Virus record (IMG/VR): IMGVR_UViG_3300020202_000122
Span: 1-43,457 of that record
From: a virus
Direction: 5' to 3' (one strand)
Length of the DNA stretch: 43,457 nt
Shown here: piece by piece, positions 1,273 to 27,764 of the stretch
How positions within the stretch are numbered: the stretch's first letter is position 1
Layout: every line of letters begins with the position of its first letter
The notes under the pieces: model-generated
Told to the model about the DNA's origin: nothing
The model's input: the letters and a program-made list of their open reading frames with translations, nothing else
The model's database searches: none
Made by a program: the position numbers and the translations under genes

Positions 1273-1654
1273 GCTGCGCCTCCCCCGTCACCCCGACAGA
1301 GGCCCGAAGGGGGACGCCCCAGCCTCGCAACGTCGCCTCGACAGCCTCGACGCTGCGGGCGAGCGCCCAGTCGCAGCCGGCCGCAACCAAGCGGTCCCGC
1401 ATGGCGCGCTGCGGCTCGGACAGCACCCCGCCGCGGGGCTTCAACTCGATGAACGCCGCCCTGCCCGGCGGCAGGATGAATTGCAGGTCGGGCACCCCGG
1501 CCTTGACGCCCATCGCCTTCAAAATTCCGGCTTCCGCCGCGCTGCGGCCGCCGCCGTTCGGGACGTGCCACCACGTCACCGTTTCGGGCAGGGCCAGCGA
1601 CAGGAAGTCGGCAACGGTGCGGTGGAGATGCTCTTCGGGGCGGCACCTTTTCAT
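1265..1654 (-). CDS. VRR-NUC domain nuclease
   Basis: 129 residues, the usual size of a stand-alone phage VRR-NUC protein. Visible PD-(D/E)xK elements are GVPDLQFILP (Asp about residue 57), then AAFIELKPRGG (Glu and Lys about residues 70-72) and LSEPQRAMRDRL. Family members cut branched or structured DNA and are common in phage replication and recombination modules. The ATG overlaps the TGA of the methyltransferase gene (ATGA), so the two are translationally coupled. Confidence 0.88.
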   Translation of the reverse strand: MKRCRPEEHLHRTVADFLSLALPETVTWWHVPNGGGRSAAEAGILKAMGVKAGVPDLQFILPPGRAAFIELKPRGGVLSEPQRAMRDRLVAAGCDWALARSVEAVEATLRGWGVPLRASVGVTGEAQHG

Positions 1655-2769
1655 TCCGCAGCCTCCAGCTTCTCGACAGCACCGAACATGCCCCCGTCCG
1701 CTGCAATGCGGCGCTCGGCCAGGGCGGCGTATTCGGGGTTCAGCTCGAGGAGGATGGCGTCGCGCTGGAGGCGGTCGGCAGCCAGCCCGGTGGTCCCGGC
1801 GCCGCCGAACGGGTCAAGCACCACGCCGCCGCGCGGACAGCCCGCCTTTATGCAGCGCTCGGCCAGCTCGGGCGGCATGGTGGCGAAGTGGGCCTCGGTG
1901 AACGGCTGGGTGGCCACCGTCCAGACGTTGCGGGCGTTCCGGCCGCGCAGGTCGGTCTCGGTGTCGGGCCGATCCGGCCGGTGGGTGCCGCACCTCGCGT
2001 CGGGGGTCAGCGGCTCGCCGCGTTTGCTCGACGCGCGCCTGAAGCTGTTGCGGGCCAGCACGGCCTTCATCGGCCTATCGGCCCTGGCGCTGCCGGTCTG
2101 GCCGGCGGTGTCCTGGGCGATGCGCGCGACGCTGCTCTCCGCCAGGGGCTCCCGCACGGCGTCCAGGTCGTAGTAGTAGCGGGGCGACTTGGTGAGCAGA
2201 AAGACATGCTCGTGGGCGTTGGTCGGCCGGTCGGTGACGCTTTCCGGCATGGGGTTGGGCTTGTGCCAAACGATGTCCGAGCGCAGCCACCAGCCGTCCG
2301 CCTGGAGGGCGAACGCGACGCGCCAGGGTATGCCGATCAGGTCTTTCGGCTTGAGACCGCTGCCCTGCGGTATGCTGCCGGTTCGCGACTGCTTCTTCGG
2401 AGCCGCCGCGATCTGGACGGCGCTCAGCGACTTGGTCTTGGGGCCGCCGGCACTGTGGCCGTTGCCGGCCAGGGTTGACTTGTCCGAGGGCGCCCCGCCG
2501 CGGGACTGCGCGCCCCAGCTACCGGCGTAGCTGTCCCCCAGGTTGAGCCACAGCGTGCCGTCGTCGCGCAGCACCCGCCGCACCTCGCGGAACACCGCCA
2601 CCATGGCGGCGACGAATTCGTCGGGCGTGGGCTCCAAGCCGAGCTGCCCCTCCACGCCATAGTCCCGCAGGCCGAAGTAGGGCGGGCTGGTGACGCAGCA
2701 GTCGACCGAGCGGTCCGGCAGCGTGGGCAGCAACGCGCGGCAGTCGCCGGTGAGAATGCGGACGGCCAT
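1651..2769 (-). CDS. Site-specific DNA methyltransferase (N4/N6, beta-class order)
   Basis: 372 residues. The catalytic motif TSPPYFGLRDYG lies near residue 28 and the AdoMet-binding motif LDPFGGAGTTG near residue 316, so motif IV precedes motif I as in beta-class amino-methyltransferases. The SPPY form is frequent among N4-cytosine enzymes but does not settle base specificity. HVFLLTKSPRYYYDLDAVRE, typical of the N6_N4_Mtase family, is also present. No restriction partner is seen, so it is an orphan enzyme, probably protecting phage DNA from host restriction. It starts in a TGATG overlap with the upstream HTH gene. Confidence 0.93.
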   Translation of the reverse strand: MAVRILTGDCRALLPTLPDRSVDCCVTSPPYFGLRDYGVEGQLGLEPTPDEFVAAMVAVFREVRRVLRDDGTLWLNLGDSYAGSWGAQSRGGAPSDKSTLAGNGHSAGGPKTKSLSAVQIAAAPKKQSRTGSIPQGSGLKPKDLIGIPWRVAFALQADGWWLRSDIVWHKPNPMPESVTDRPTNAHEHVFLLTKSPRYYYDLDAVREPLAESSVARIAQDTAGQTGSARADRPMKAVLARNSFRRASSKRGEPLTPDARCGTHRPDRPDTETDLRGRNARNVWTVATQPFTEAHFATMPPELAERCIKAGCPRGGVVLDPFGGAGTTGLAADRLQRDAILLELNPEYAALAERRIAADGGMFGAVEKLEAAE

Positions 2770-6240: not shown

Positions 6241-6295
6241 GTGAGATGCTGTCGTCGCGGTGCATCTCTGCTCCGCGCCGGTGCAGAGGCGCTCC

Positions 6296-7252
6296 TTGAT
6301 CGATGATTGGAACGACCTCCGTTTCGTGCTAGCCGTCGCACGCGAGGGCAGCTTCGCGGCGGCGAGCAAGGCGCTCGGAAGTGGCAAGGGTGCCACAAAG
6401 TGGACTGTTGCCCGGCGGATTGACGAACTGGAGGCGAGGCTCGGCCAGCCCCTTTTCGAGCGCGGGAGCCCACGAATGCGGCCGACGCAGCACGCCCTCC
6501 CCCTGGTCGAAGCCGCCATCGAAACCGAGAGGCGCTTGCAATCGCTGCGTTTAGGCGGAGGCCGTGAACACACAACCGCCCGGATCCGCCTTTGGGCTAC
6601 GGAGGGTATGGCCGCGTACTGGCTGCCGCATTCGCTCACGACCTTCCGACACGCCCAGCCCCTGGTTCAGGTCCAGACGGTGGCCACAATGCGATTGCCC
6701 GACCTCGATACTTCCGAGGCCGACGTTGCCGTCACCTACGATCTGCCATTGAGGGACGATTGGGTAGAGATCGCCGCATCGAAGATGACCTTCCGCGTGG
6801 CCGCCTCTCGTCGCTATCTTCTGGCGGCCGGGCGCCCAACGTGTTTCGAGGATCTGAGGCAACACCCGGTTCTCGCTTCGCCTGAACTCCCGACGACTGG
6901 CGCATGGCGCGCATGGGGTGACCTGATTGCGAGTCACCCCAACGTCGCGATGATCATTGACAGCAGCATAGCTTACGGTTGGGCTACAGCGAATGGCCTA
7001 GGCTTCGCTCCGCAGCCTATCGGGCTAATCGAGAGGGAGCGCGACGCGCTGGAGGGTTTTACATTTCCCGAGTTCGAGCCCTCACTCGACTTCTATCTAA
7101 TCTGCCGGCGCGACATCCGACAGCAGCCCCACATTGCGCTATTCCTCCAACACTTAAAGCGACAGATCTTCGAGCGCGAGCCCGGCCCCCCGGACATTCC
7201 GTGGGATAGCCGGGCAACTGTCGCGCTCGGGGCTGAGGCCCCGCGCCCCTAA
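6296..7252 (+). CDS. LysR-family transcriptional regulator
   Basis: 318 residues from the TTG chosen because the protein then opens with IDDWNDLRFVLAVAREGSF, the usual LysR N-terminus, and AGAGG lies 7 nt upstream; a GTG at 6260 gives 12 more residues. The winged HTH covers about residues 1-60 (FAAASKALGSGKGATKWTVA then RRIDELEARLGQPLFERG). The substrate-binding domain follows (about 85-300) and includes TSEADVAVTYD. Ligand and targets are unknown. It sits in the lysogeny block between the two operator sets, away from lytic genes, so it is probable host-altering cargo. It converges with the GNAT gene with a 4-nt overlap. Confidence 0.9.
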   Translation: MIDDWNDLRFVLAVAREGSFAAASKALGSGKGATKWTVARRIDELEARLGQPLFERGSPRMRPTQHALPLVEAAIETERRLQSLRLGGGREHTTARIRLWATEGMAAYWLPHSLTTFRHAQPLVQVQTVATMRLPDLDTSEADVAVTYDLPLRDDWVEIAASKMTFRVAASRRYLLAAGRPTCFEDLRQHPVLASPELPTTGAWRAWGDLIASHPNVAMIIDSSIAYGWATANGLGFAPQPIGLIERERDALEGFTFPEFEPSLDFYLICRRDIRQQPHIALFLQHLKRQIFEREPGPPDIPWDSRATVALGAEAPRP

Positions 7253-8036: not shown

Positions 8037-8744
8037 TCAGGGTGGAGAAATTGGCGCTGACGCTGGCGGAGCGGGCACTAGAATCACCTGTGGTGCCTGC
8101 TGTTTGGTTGCGGTAATCGAGTTGGCGATAGCACTCGTCTGGGCGGCAGTCTCAGCGCGCAACGCTCTGAACTCCGCTCCAATCCTGTCGTCGATGCCGC
8201 TTACTTCTGCCAGGACATAGAATTGGAGCGTGACAACGACCGCCAGAGCGGCAAGCACCAGCGCGGCGATCCCTAGCGTGCCAGACCAAAGGATGGCTTG
8301 GCTTTGCTTGATGCCGTCGAACCCACCCTCAAGCTTGGAAAGCCGCTCTTGCATGCCACCAATATGGCCGTCGCCGTTGCCGGCAGCAATGGGCTTCTGT
8401 GTGTCCGGATCGTTGGCGGTCTTATGGGTTTTGTCTGGTTTCTTGTCGTGTTCCGGCAACTGGGCGGCTCGCGTCGCGTCAGCAGCGGCGGCCTGCGCGC
8501 TAGGTCGGCTTGCGTTGCTTGACGCCTGACCCATCATCCGCGCGGCGGCGAACGCTTTATCGCGATCCTCCGGCTTGATGCTCCCAGGGCTGGGTATAAT
8601 GAATGCAGTCGCCATGAACTGTGTCCAAGGCTTCATCAGCCCTCGGTCGGACACGCTAGACAGGGCGCCTTGCTCCGTAGTCGTTGTTGCGGTCGCTTCA
8701 ATCGGGGGCCGGGGAACCAGTCGAAGGTGCGGTGGCTCGCGCAT
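8037..8744 (-). CDS. Membrane-anchored protein of a two-gene cargo unit
   Basis: 235 residues. The N-terminal half is low-complexity and hydrophilic (TEQGALSSVSD; ASSNASRPSAQAAAADATRA; a Lys/His-rich DKKPDKTHKT). A possible coiled-coil GMQERLSKLEGGFDGIKQSQ precedes one membrane span (ILWSGTLGIAALVLAALAVV, about residues 150-173) and a second helical segment IDDRIGAEFRALRAETAAQ, with a proline-rich end. The gene is second in a two-gene leftward unit that ends in a strong terminator. No family is recognised. A role in exclusion of other phages would fit its place between the two operator sets but is a guess. Confidence 0.65.
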   Translation of the reverse strand: MREPPHLRLVPRPPIEATATTTTEQGALSSVSDRGLMKPWTQFMATAFIIPSPGSIKPEDRDKAFAAARMMGQASSNASRPSAQAAAADATRAAQLPEHDKKPDKTHKTANDPDTQKPIAAGNGDGHIGGMQERLSKLEGGFDGIKQSQAILWSGTLGIAALVLAALAVVVTLQFYVLAEVSGIDDRIGAEFRALRAETAAQTSAIANSITATKQQAPQVILVPAPPASAPISPP

Positions 8745-21186: not shown

Positions 21187-21210
21187 CGTAGGGGCGCCTC
21201 CTGAGCGCAC

Positions 21211-21240
21211 GAAAAAGGCCGCTGCGGGGTGCGGCGGCCG
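21211..21240 (-). terminator. Terminator upstream of the 48-aa gene
   Basis: Minus strand: GGCCGC, an 11-nt middle that can pair further, GCGGCC, then TTTTT. It sits 25 nt before the start of the 48-aa gene, so either it ends the lysis transcript and the small gene is expressed by read-through, or it acts as an attenuator for that gene. Confidence 0.65.
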
Positions 21241-21656
21241 GGGGAACGGAGAGTATTTTTTGGTCTTGCAGATCAGGGCCTTAGCTGCGAAACGCGAGCC
21301 AATTGGGCCAGATCGGAGAGCATTGCGGGGGCAGTCGACGAAATGGTTGGATTTCCCAACCATTCAGCGAATTTCCGGCCCAGATCAGTGGGTTAGCGCA
21401 GTCGACGCCCTGCGCCGCCGCCTTCGCGCCCCGGATGACGCCTGCCCAGTTCGATTGTTGCGGGCGGAGCGGCTTTTGCGAAATGATCCGTTTTGTGGAT
21501 CATTTCTCAATGTGCGGCCGAGGGCGGTGATCAGCGACTGCGGATCGGCGAGGAAATCGGCACCAACCCTAGCTAATCCGCGGGTTTGAGGGACGATCCA
21601 GCGCCAGAGAGAATCGGTGCCGCGGGGAGCTTGTGCATCGCATGCACATACTCAAG
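21241..21656. other. Non-coding stretch downstream of the endolysin
   Basis: No gene with good composition is seen. It contains perfect inverted repeats AATGGTTGG/CCAACCATT (21342-21364), GAAATGATCC/GGATCATTTC (21480-21506) and TGTGCAT/ATGCACA (21632-21648). The block ending GCAGTCGACG occurs twice (21331-21340 and 21399-21408), each time preceded by a CCAGATC-like word. The features could belong to an origin, a regulatory region or a decayed gene. Confidence 0.5.
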
Positions 21657-22157
21657 TCAGGCCGCCTGCAGCTTCACATCGGGCCAGGGCTTCGGCGGCA
21701 CCTTGCCGTCCGGGCTGCAGAACAGGGCCTGCTCGGCAAGCCGGCGGCGGGTGAGGCCGGCCAGCACCTTGCCGCCCGCCCGGTTCCAGCGCGGGAACTC
21801 GGCTGCAGCCATGGCGTGGTTTCCGGCCTGCAGGTGCCGCAGCAGCGTGGACTTCTGCAGGGCCGCGCTGCCGAGGTTGAAGGCGAAGCAGGTGAGCGCG
21901 GCGTGGGCGTTCTCCCCCAGGCCGGGGGCCAGCCGCTCGACATCCGCCGCGAACCTCGCCGCGTCGTCCTGCAGGTACTGTACGGCCATGGCGAGGCCGA
22001 TGAATGCGCCCTCGTAGGCACCCTTGCCGGTGTGGCCCCACCCTATGGTCCACACGCCTGCAGGACAGCGGTACGCCTGCAGCGCCGGCCCGCCCTTCGG
22101 CCCCTGCTCGAAGTGCTGCAGGAGCGCGAGGCCCGCGTCGTTCAGCCGGCGGGTCAC
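21657..22157 (-). CDS. Endolysin, glycoside hydrolase 24 lysozyme
   Basis: 166 residues from a GTG in GTGA overlap with the secreted-protein gene. The catalytic region is LLQHFEQGPKGGPALQAYRC followed by PAGVWTIGWGHT: Glu17, Cys31 at the usual Asp position and Thr37. Cys in place of Asp is known in many phage lysozymes of this family. There is no signal sequence, so the protein relies on the holin gene upstream. The gene body is part of the CTGCAG cluster. Confidence 0.92.
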   Translation of the reverse strand: MTRRLNDAGLALLQHFEQGPKGGPALQAYRCPAGVWTIGWGHTGKGAYEGAFIGLAMAVQYLQDDAARFAADVERLAPGLGENAHAALTCFAFNLGSAALQKSTLLRHLQAGNHAMAAAEFPRWNRAGGKVLAGLTRRRLAEQALFCSPDGKVPPKPWPDVKLQAA

Positions 22158-22357
22158 GACGGCGCCCCCGGCGGTTCTGCAGGACGCAGCGGCTCTTCGC
22201 TCCAGTCCCGGCCTGCAGCCAGCACGCAGGCGGCGCCGCTCGGCAGCAGCAGGATCAGGGTCCAGGTCCGGCCGTCTGCAGACTGCAGGCGCTCGACGAC
22301 GGCGCCGTTGGGCGCCATGCCCCAACCTGCAGGCCGCTCGCCGTAGCCCTCCTGCAG
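21666..22357. repeat. Cluster of 15 CTGCAG palindromes
   Basis: CTGCAG begins at 21666, 21715, 21803, 21828, 21855, 21969, 22058, 22077, 22116, 22177, 22213, 22276, 22283, 22327 and 22352. I found only about seven in the remaining 42.7 kb. The sites fall in three codon phases: CTG-CAG (8), nCT-GCA-Gnn (6) and nnC-TGC-AGn (1). Confidence 0.9.
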
Positions 22358-22459
22358 GCGGGACAGCACGGCGTCCACCGGGCCGCAGGAGAGCTGCTGC
22401 GCCCCCGCCCCTCCCGCCGCCAGGACAAGCGCCGCCGTGGCGCAAAGCAGTGCGCGCAT
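22154..22459 (-). CDS. Secreted hypothetical protein of the lysis cassette
   Basis: 101 residues. A clear signal peptide (MRALLCATAALVLAAGGAGA, cut before QQ) leads a small domain: LSCGPVDAVLSRLQEGYGER with NGAVVERLQSADGRTWTLIL and CVLAAGRDW. Related small periplasmic proteins occur in alphaproteobacteria without known role. Between holin and endolysin it could be a spanin-like or regulatory lysis protein, but it lacks the lipobox or membrane anchor of Rz/Rz1. AGAG precedes the ATG. Confidence 0.65.
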   Translation of the reverse strand: MRALLCATAALVLAAGGAGAQQLSCGPVDAVLSRLQEGYGERPAGWGMAPNGAVVERLQSADGRTWTLILLLPSGAACVLAAGRDWSEEPLRPAEPPGAPS

Positions 22460-22503
22460 AGGTCTCTCCGTTTCTGGGGTTCCGCCTGCCGGGCGGCGCG
22501 GTC

Positions 22504-22851
22504 TCAGGCGCTCGGCTTCGGCGCCAAGCGGTCCACAAGCCGCCACACGACGGCCTCGACGAAGCCCGGCCCCAGGTAGGCGACGGTCACTATGAGCCCC
22601 GTCGCCTGCCAGCCGGTGACGGCGTAGTAGTCGGCTAGACCGCCGCCGATGAAGCCGGTGCCGAGCGCCACCGGGAACTCCCAGAGCATGGCGGGCGACA
22701 GGAACTTCCGCCGGCCCGCCTGCACCTGGCGGGCGTGGTGCATGAGCCGCCCCGTCAGGGCCGCAAACATGGTGACGACAAAGCCGAGCAGCGCTTCCCG
22801 CCAGGGCGGCGGAAGTTGGTCAAGCACGGCTTGTAGGACGCTCTGCGGCAT
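22504..22851 (-). CDS. Holin
   Basis: 115 residues. LPPPWREALLGFVVTMFAAL, a basic HHARQVQAGRRKFLSPAMLW, then FPVALGTGFIGGGLADYYAV and GLIVTVAYLGPGFVEAVVWR give three membrane segments, as in the LydA-type holins of alphaproteobacterial phages. It makes the inner-membrane lesion that releases the endolysin. It is the first of the three leftward lysis genes. Confidence 0.8.
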   Translation of the reverse strand: MPQSVLQAVLDQLPPPWREALLGFVVTMFAALTGRLMHHARQVQAGRRKFLSPAMLWEFPVALGTGFIGGGLADYYAVTGWQATGLIVTVAYLGPGFVEAVVWRLVDRLAPKPSA

Positions 22852-26138: not shown

Positions 26139-27764
26139 TCAGTAGTAGACCAGCAGCTCGGTCCTGCCGGCGGCGAGGTCGGTGTCGACGACGTAGGCCG
26201 TCACGTGGCGCGGCGCGGCGAAGTCCGGGTCGGCAGGGTGCTCCAGCGAGCCCGTCATGCCCGGCTCCACCTGGCCGAAATAGGCGTCGGTGACGATGCG
26301 CCAGTACCGGCGCGGCACCGTCCACAGGTCGCGGCGCCGCTCGGCCTCGGCACGGGCGGCGGCCTCGCTGCGGTAGAGGCCCTGCAGGCGCGGCCGGAGC
26401 CCCTGGCGGTAGCTCTGCTGGGCGGACACCGACGCGGCCGGGGCGATGCGCGCCGCCTGGAGCAAAAAGGCGCGGTCCTCGGCCGTGGTGGCCGCGTCGA
26501 GGTCCGACTGCGCCCCGGCGAAGTTCGGCCCCCACTCCACCTCGCAGCCGGTCCAGGGCGGCGCCAAGCCCTCGGGCGGTGGAACCTCTTCCAAGGCGAG
26601 GATGTCGGCCCGCGTCAGGACGAAGGCCGGCACCGGGTCCGGGGCCCCGAGCAGGAAGGGGCGGAACAGGCCCAGGCGCGACATGCCGCCCTCGGCCCCG
26701 ACCCCGGCCAGCAGCCGCCCCGCCACCTCCGCCACCGTCGCCACCTCGGGCCCCACCCACAGCCCGACCTCGGCCGTCACTGCGAACGCGAAATGGGCGA
26801 AGGCGTCGGGGTCCAGGTCCGCCGTGTCGAGCCCGCCCCGCGCCAAGATGCGCGCCAGGATTTCCGCCGCCGTCGAGACGTAGCCGCCCCGCGCGTCGCC
26901 CTCGAAGCGCACCAGCACCGGCCCCGAGGCGTCGAAGCCGAGCGTCAGGAAGCCCGTCGCCTCGTCGGCCGCATACTGCCCGGCGCCCGGCGCGTCGCCC
27001 TCGAAGCGCACCAGCACCGGCCCCGAGGCGTCGAAGCCGAGCGTCAGGAAGCCCGTCGCCTCGTCGGCCGCATACTGCCCGGCGCCCGGCGCGCCGGACA
27101 CCCGCACCAGCCGGACGCCGCGGTGCCAGACCACCAGCACGGCCCTGACCGGCCCGTCATGGACCTGCCAGCGCCGCGCCGCCGCGTCCACCAGCACCGC
27201 CGGGGCCGCCGGCACATGGCCGTAGCCGACCGGCTTGGGGCGGCCGGCGAGGTCGAAGCCGCCCTCGTCACCGCCCAGGCCGGTGTAGACATTCTCCTGG
27301 AAATAGCCCGTCAGACGGTGGTCCTTGAGCCGCAGCGGCAGCAGCACCCGATCGCCCTGGCGGCGCCAGGCGGCGGCCGAGCCGCGCAGCACCGGCGCGG
27401 CGGCGTCCAGCGACAGGCCGCGCCGGCACGGCGCCCCGCTGCCGCGTGGCAGCTCCAGCACGTCGAGCGCCACGTCCTGGCCGTCCACCGCATAGTCCCG
27501 CGTCAGGGTCAGCAGGCGCCGGTCGCCGTCCCACAGCTCGGCCTCGCCCACCGACAGGGAGAGCCCGCCGCGGCCGGGCGTCGCCTCCTGGCGCAGGCGG
27601 ACGGTGCCGAGCAGGCGCGGGTCGAAGGCGGCGTTGGGCACGGCGTCGTCCGGCCGCGACAGGTAGCCGGCATTGGCGAAGCGCCAATCGACGGTGCCGG
27701 TGTAGGCGTCGGCCGCCGGCAGCGTGGCGAGCGGCGCGGTGCCGAGGGGGCGCAGTCCGAGCAT
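26139..27764 (-). CDS. Minor tail protein with perfect internal duplication
   Basis: 541 residues. It opens MLGLRPLGTAPLATLPAAD, a start shared with the 54-aa gene upstream. The long central region has many strands. A 33-residue unit (APGAGQYAADEATGFLTLGF and on to RFEGD) occurs twice in tandem with no difference. The C-terminal part includes ERRRDLWTVPRRYWRIVTDA, followed by a strand-rich end. A baseplate or fibre-connector role is likely from position; family unknown. Confidence 0.65.
   Translation of the reverse strand: MLGLRPLGTAPLATLPAADAYTGTVDWRFANAGYLSRPDDAVPNAAFDPRLLGTVRLRQEATPGRGGLSLSVGEAELWDGDRRLLTLTRDYAVDGQDVALDVLELPRGSGAPCRRGLSLDAAAPVLRGSAAAWRRQGDRVLLPLRLKDHRLTGYFQENVYTGLGGDEGGFDLAGRPKPVGYGHVPAAPAVLVDAAARRWQVHDGPVRAVLVVWHRGVRLVRVSGAPGAGQYAADEATGFLTLGFDASGPVLVRFEGDAPGAGQYAADEATGFLTLGFDASGPVLVRFEGDARGGYVSTAAEILARILARGGLDTADLDPDAFAHFAFAVTAEVGLWVGPEVATVAEVAGRLLAGVGAEGGMSRLGLFRPFLLGAPDPVPAFVLTRADILALEEVPPPEGLAPPWTGCEVEWGPNFAGAQSDLDAATTAEDRAFLLQAARIAPAASVSAQQSYRQGLRPRLQGLYRSEAAARAEAERRRDLWTVPRRYWRIVTDAYFGQVEPGMTGSLEHPADPDFAAPRHVTAYVVDTDLAAGRTELLVYY
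26891..27088. repeat. Perfect 99-bp tandem duplication
   Basis: Copy 1 at 26891-26989, copy 2 at 26990-27088; identity continues to 104 bp at the same lag. No base differs. The unit is 33 codons, so the frame of the tail protein is kept. Confidence 0.95.

Follow-up and report, generated by a model that had tools for sequence, protein, structure and literature searches.

A HIP-like load of CTGCAG palindromes confined to an endolysin gene and its partner gene in a phage genome

The motifs termed highly iterated palindromes (HIPs) are known from cyanobacteria, where they are spread genome-wide, and include HIP1 as well as alternate HIPs, some of which have six-base motifs such as GGCGCC; a proposed origin is methyl-cytosine-directed mismatch repair at GmeC, which requires no function of the sites (Elhai 2015, PMC4390886). 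The origin of HIPs is a long-standing open question that has been studied mostly in cyanobacteria. Clusters of a different short site, the Dam GATC site, are found in control DNA at E. coli oriC and at phage P1 pac. Here we describe a block of CTGCAG sites in a phage that is a HIP load in its pattern, yet is confined to a two-gene module and is therefore not a HIP member in the strict sense.

The DNA analyzed (hereafter the window) is one strand, 5' to 3', of 43,457 bp (positions 1-43,457 of IMG/VR virus record IMGVR_UViG_3300020202_000122). It contains 22 CTGCAG sites, 15 of which lie in a strandless block of 692 bp at 21666-22357 (starts at 21666, 21715, 21803, 21828, 21855, 21969, 22058, 22077, 22116, 22177, 22213, 22276, 22283, 22327 and 22352), with the other 7 elsewhere. 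A preliminary description had reported 15 sites in about 690 bp and about seven in the remaining DNA, irregularly spaced by 7 to 114 bp and in all three codon phases; the spacing and the phases were borne out (8 sites read LQ, 6 are of the PAG/AAA/SAD/AAG/PAE type and 1 reads FCS), and the clustering proved even stronger than stated. When all hexamers of the window were scanned for local clustering, CTGCAG ranked first (15/22 in 700 bp, scan-corrected p ~4e-20), and the runner-up, CCTGCA, reports the same signal. Every TGCA in 21657-22460 is part of a CTGCAG (15/15), versus 7/98 in the remainder of the window. With 15 sites in 804 bp versus 0.27 expected per 700 bp from the second-order composition of the window, over-representation relative to composition, as is typical of HIPs, was observed within the block only. 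The earlier estimate that chance gives well under one site thus holds for a random 700-bp stretch (~0.3) but not for the peptides encoded here, for which the expectation rises to ~4.5-6 sites owing to the enrichment of LQ dipeptides.

The block falls within two genes on the minus strand that form a co-translated pair. The first (21657-22157) encodes a GH24 phage endolysin (Pfam Phage_lysozyme, E 2.6e-35; phrog_7, E 4e-44; supported by alignment) and holds nine sites, six of them read as Leu-Gln; judging from the sequence, it likely starts at a GTG that overlaps the stop of the upstream gene (GTGA). The second (22154-22459) encodes a small secreted protein with a signal peptide-like N-terminus that matches phrog_25396, a family of unknown function (E 8.5e-20; alignment and family survey), and it carries six sites, with none in its first 34 codons. 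The assignment of both to lysis genes thus stands for the endolysin, a recognized lysis protein, but not for its partner, an uncharacterized secreted protein. Members of phrog_25396 occur in 84/385 sampled genomes of one class, reached via an alphaproteobacterial genome, at no more than five copies each. Further upstream in the same cassette, a LydA-type holin gene (22504-22851, minus strand; Pfam Phage_holin_3_3) has no CTGCAG. The non-coding stretch 3' of the endolysin gene (21187-21656, strandless, 470 bp) has none either, and the edge of the block thus coincides with that of the gene. This stretch also contains an inverted repeat at 21476-21510 (TTGCGAAATGATCC-N7-GGATCATTTCTCAA) that is overlapped by a promoter-like site.

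In a GC-rich gene, such a cluster could in principle arise from codon habit, from the amino-acid composition or by expansion of a repeat, as Leu and Gln are preferentially encoded by CTG and CAG and 8/15 sites read LQ. Several tests on the coding sequence speak against this. First, codon-preserving shuffling, which had been named as the refutation test for a DNA-level signal, yielded a mean of 4.4 and a maximum of 8 sites for the endolysin gene (9 observed) and a mean of 1.8 and a maximum of 5 for the small-protein gene (6 observed), with 0/10,000 shuffles reaching the observed count in either gene. Second, resampling from the codon use of the phage structural genes gave 3.5 and 1.0 sites, respectively, and again never reached the observed numbers (0/20,000 each). 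Third, LQ dipeptides elsewhere in the phage are encoded more often by CTCCAG (7/15) than by CTGCAG (4/15), whereas in the gene pair CTGCAG is used in 8/8 cases. Moreover, six sites require the rare codons CCT, GCT or TCT followed by GCA, and CCT, GCT and TCT occur in the pair exclusively within CTGCAG sites. No other palindrome exceeds four copies in the pair. A tandem or minisatellite origin was ruled out as well, since site spacings take all residues modulo 3 and no tandem repeat or tandem family was found; the other dense CTGCAG clusters that we inspected differ from the block, most of them being short minisatellites or peptide repeats in a single phase. In the tail region of the same phage, a protein encoded at 26139-27764 has an apparently exact direct repeat of ~33 residues in the ORF list (APGAGQYAADEATGFLTLGFDASGPVLVRFEGD, twice in tandem).

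To quantify saturation, we counted, over all three phases, the places at which a synonymous choice of codons would permit CTGCAG and compared them with the number used. The gene pair uses 15/20 of these opportunities (75%), and within 21666-22357 the sites occupy 15/17 mutually compatible places; of the unused places in the pair, one is incompatible with a used site that it overlaps, and two belong to the signal-peptide region beyond the block. By contrast, six other genes of the phage (holin, Rha-like regulator, tail, portal, terminase and tape-measure) use 3/95. Frame independence and saturation of permitted sites, two further traits of HIPs, were thus observed directly. Such a fraction-of-opportunities measure tells a DNA-level drive from codon habit and could be scanned over viromes.

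Comparison with homologues pointed in the same direction. Endolysin homologues (n=122) use 25/275 places (9%) and offer a mean of 2.3 places each, versus 12 here, and they contain a mean of 0.39 and a maximum of 3 LQ dipeptides, versus 6 here. Similarly, the matches among small-protein homologues (n=28) use 2/51 places, versus 6/8 here. Both the synonymous choice and the protein sequence have therefore shifted towards CTGCAG: LQ and further peptides that permit the site were gained where the alignments vary, as seen for the Gln of the LQ pairs in the endolysin, and the conserved CPAG motif of the endolysin was recoded synonymously with rare codons. As to whether sites or only residues are conserved, a check suggested in the preliminary description, the array proved absent from endolysin and small-protein homologues alike, and no homologous CTGCAG array was present at the endolysin loci examined (80 viral, 47 genomic) or at 20 small-protein loci. 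On the basis of the shuffles, the resampling, the opportunity counts and the homologues, codon habit or a peptide repeat is refuted and can hardly account for the block, and the earlier proposal of a DNA-level signal that is independent of codon phase is well supported. We conclude that the feature is real and extreme and that the signal acts at the level of DNA.

What process saturates the pair? For comparison, HIP1 (GCGATCGC) fills 58/72 of its synonymous places (81%) in the Synechococcus elongatus plasmid NC_007595, with 96/163 for the CGATCG core, which places the block and HIP1 of this plasmid in the same saturation regime. The code offers more places to a palindrome of only six bases, and saturating them yields the high density of the block. 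CTGCAG also has a central GC, as the GmeC-repair model requires (PMC4390886). The explanation that we favor, tentatively and at somewhat short of an even chance, is that the endolysin and its partner carry a HIP-type CTGCAG load laid down by a DNA-level process and that the module was imported from a different genetic background. A process acting on DNA, rather than on protein or RNA, would convert nearly every position that the code permits to CTGCAG and would push variable residues towards Leu-Gln and Pro/Ala/Ser-Ala; it could be either a methylation-directed repair bias of the Elhai type, possibly involving a CTGCAG methyltransferase, or selection for the site. The two-gene module would have evolved in the other background and then entered the phage by the modular exchange that is usual for lysis genes, and the load would stop at the boundary of the pair because the module evolved elsewhere.

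The surroundings of the block differ from it. The remaining 42.7 kb of the window has somewhat fewer CTGCAG sites than expected (7 versus 15.7, p 0.012). Four related prophages, whose portals are ~53% identical, lack CTGCAG altogether in 21 kb each. A genome-wide excess was thus not found, and the phage carries a HIP-like block rather than a HIP genome. Other palindromes are scarce in the window outside 21657-22460, including CCCGGG (0 observed versus 29.8 expected), CGATCG (4 versus 34), CAGCTG (1 versus 21.5) and GGGCCC (9 versus 38), and this avoidance suggests past restriction pressure. Two genes at 6260-7252 (a LysR-type regulator) and 8037-8744 (its neighbor) have a GC3 of 0.73 and 0.66, versus ~0.9, and are likely recent cargo. 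Against import of the endolysin module stands its codon use, which outside the sites is the same as that of the phage structural genes (mean log-likelihood -0.790 versus -0.794), so that nothing besides the sites marks the pair as foreign.

This similarity in codon use fits an in-situ origin. In the main rival explanation, the sites are a local cis-acting array built in this phage, with a repressor, a nucleoid protein or a replication protein as reader or with the methylation state as the signal, so that site occupancy would affect lysis expression, replication or packaging. Such an array would operate like the Dam-site clusters of oriC or P1 pac, either through many weak cooperative sites or by titration as a sponge. 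Their extreme confinement to 692 bp would suit such an array, as would site intervals that vary a little less than at random (CV 0.60, p 0.047). The phage also encodes a DNA methyltransferase, a candidate reader, and other IMG/VR contigs (L387 and relatives) have CTGCAG-centered non-coding arrays near a primase gene. On the other hand, helical phasing near 10.5 bp was not found in the block (p 0.42), and beyond a modest preference for a flanking G (17/30 half-sites) the sites have no clear consensus past the hexamer. The array is lacking from homologous cassettes, and the adjoining 470 bp of non-coding DNA, where an array would be cheapest, has no site. The near-saturation of permitted positions also exceeds what an array needs and resembles the genome-wide drive of HIPs rather than an array of fixed number, and the L387-type arrays differ from the block in being non-coding with an extended TTTTCTGCAGAAAA palindrome. 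We found no GC-skew switch of note at the block that would indicate a replication origin. Taken together, these findings do not support the dedicated binding-site or control array proposed in the preliminary description, and we regard a local array as possible but rather unlikely. The related reading that the phage itself assembled a maximally dense array within its lysis genes, as a DNA device whose function depends on methylation or on a protein reader and which was paid for with amino-acid changes in the endolysin, appears doubtful; if true, it would represent a cis-element of a new class that runs through two coding sequences.

The methyltransferase (1651-2769, minus strand) had been put forward as a possible reader of the sites. 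It belongs to the N6/N4 DNA methyltransferases (PF01555; phrog_67; PDB relatives CcrM, RsrI and PvuII), it showed no sign of CTGCAG specificity, and its nearest solved relatives, of the CcrM, RsrI and PvuII type, have other targets. We also considered a function at the level of RNA, in which repeated CUGCAG would serve as a processing, binding or pairing motif in the lysis mRNA. CUGCAG is self-complementary, and gene order suggests that all sites lie in one transcript. Nevertheless, the transcript does not exceed shuffled versions in folding stability (z -0.5), a search of Rfam returned no family of note and the spacing is irregular, which renders an RNA motif improbable.

We then searched for a donor of the module and for similar arrays. 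Using a three-site out-of-phase CTGCAG pattern as the criterion, we found no HIP-like CTGCAG genome among the sampled Alphaproteobacteria (385), Gammaproteobacteria (369) and 29 order-level genomes. A single-protein scan of the genomes encoding the small protein likewise revealed no donor, and plasmid searches returned distant homologues only. At the DNA level, the phage showed no similarity to known phages. CTGCAG-rich lineages do exist, as seen from related metagenomic phage contigs (L312/L479 and L453) with a milder, genome-wide CTGCAG excess in all three phases (e.g. 61 sites in 13 kb) and with CTGCAG as the single most over-represented palindrome over their whole sequences. Saturation in phase 1 is ~33% in contigs of this type versus ~55% in the gene pair. 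It is possible that L312, L479 and L453 represent a CTGCAG-HIP lineage outside cyanobacteria. No other multi-phase coding cluster approaching the block was found in 4.56 Mb of DNA for any of the 64 six-base palindromes; the next CTGCAG clusters, on L387 and L427, are non-coding or adjoin a primase gene. Three complete scans of viromes, each with a strict four-site pattern, gave 4-10 stretches apiece, the majority of which were minisatellites or runs of LQ in a single phase. The array at L387:11332-11480, with counterparts on L352, L427 and L448, consists of TTTTCTGCAGAAAA-type palindromes in non-coding DNA immediately 5' of a primase-like gene and looks like an iteron-type replication origin common to several phage contigs.

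A block of 0.7 kb at HIP level in an otherwise ordinary phage of non-cyanobacterial type offers a compact object on which ideas about HIPs can be tested. Either it points to a CTGCAG-HIP lineage that has yet to be described, together with the methyltransferase of that lineage, or it is a dense functional array within lysis genes. In gene content and order, its surroundings resemble known cassettes with a LydA-type holin and a GH24 endolysin, whereas none of the 122 endolysin homologues carries a CTGCAG array. The L387, L352, L427 and L448 arrays share with the block clustered CTGCAG in several phases but are non-coding, iteron-like and next to a primase gene. Like the block, oriC and P1 pac have dense, irregular short palindromes, which in P1 pac also lie within coding DNA; they differ in having fewer sites and a known methylase and reader, whereas the block consists of CTGCAG inside lysis genes. 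The closest likeness in pattern is to HIPs, which share with the block a short GC-containing palindrome, all codon phases, irregular spacing and near-full synonymous use (81% versus 75%), but which pervade whole cyanobacterial genomes, whereas here the motif is CTGCAG and the load is limited to two phage genes.
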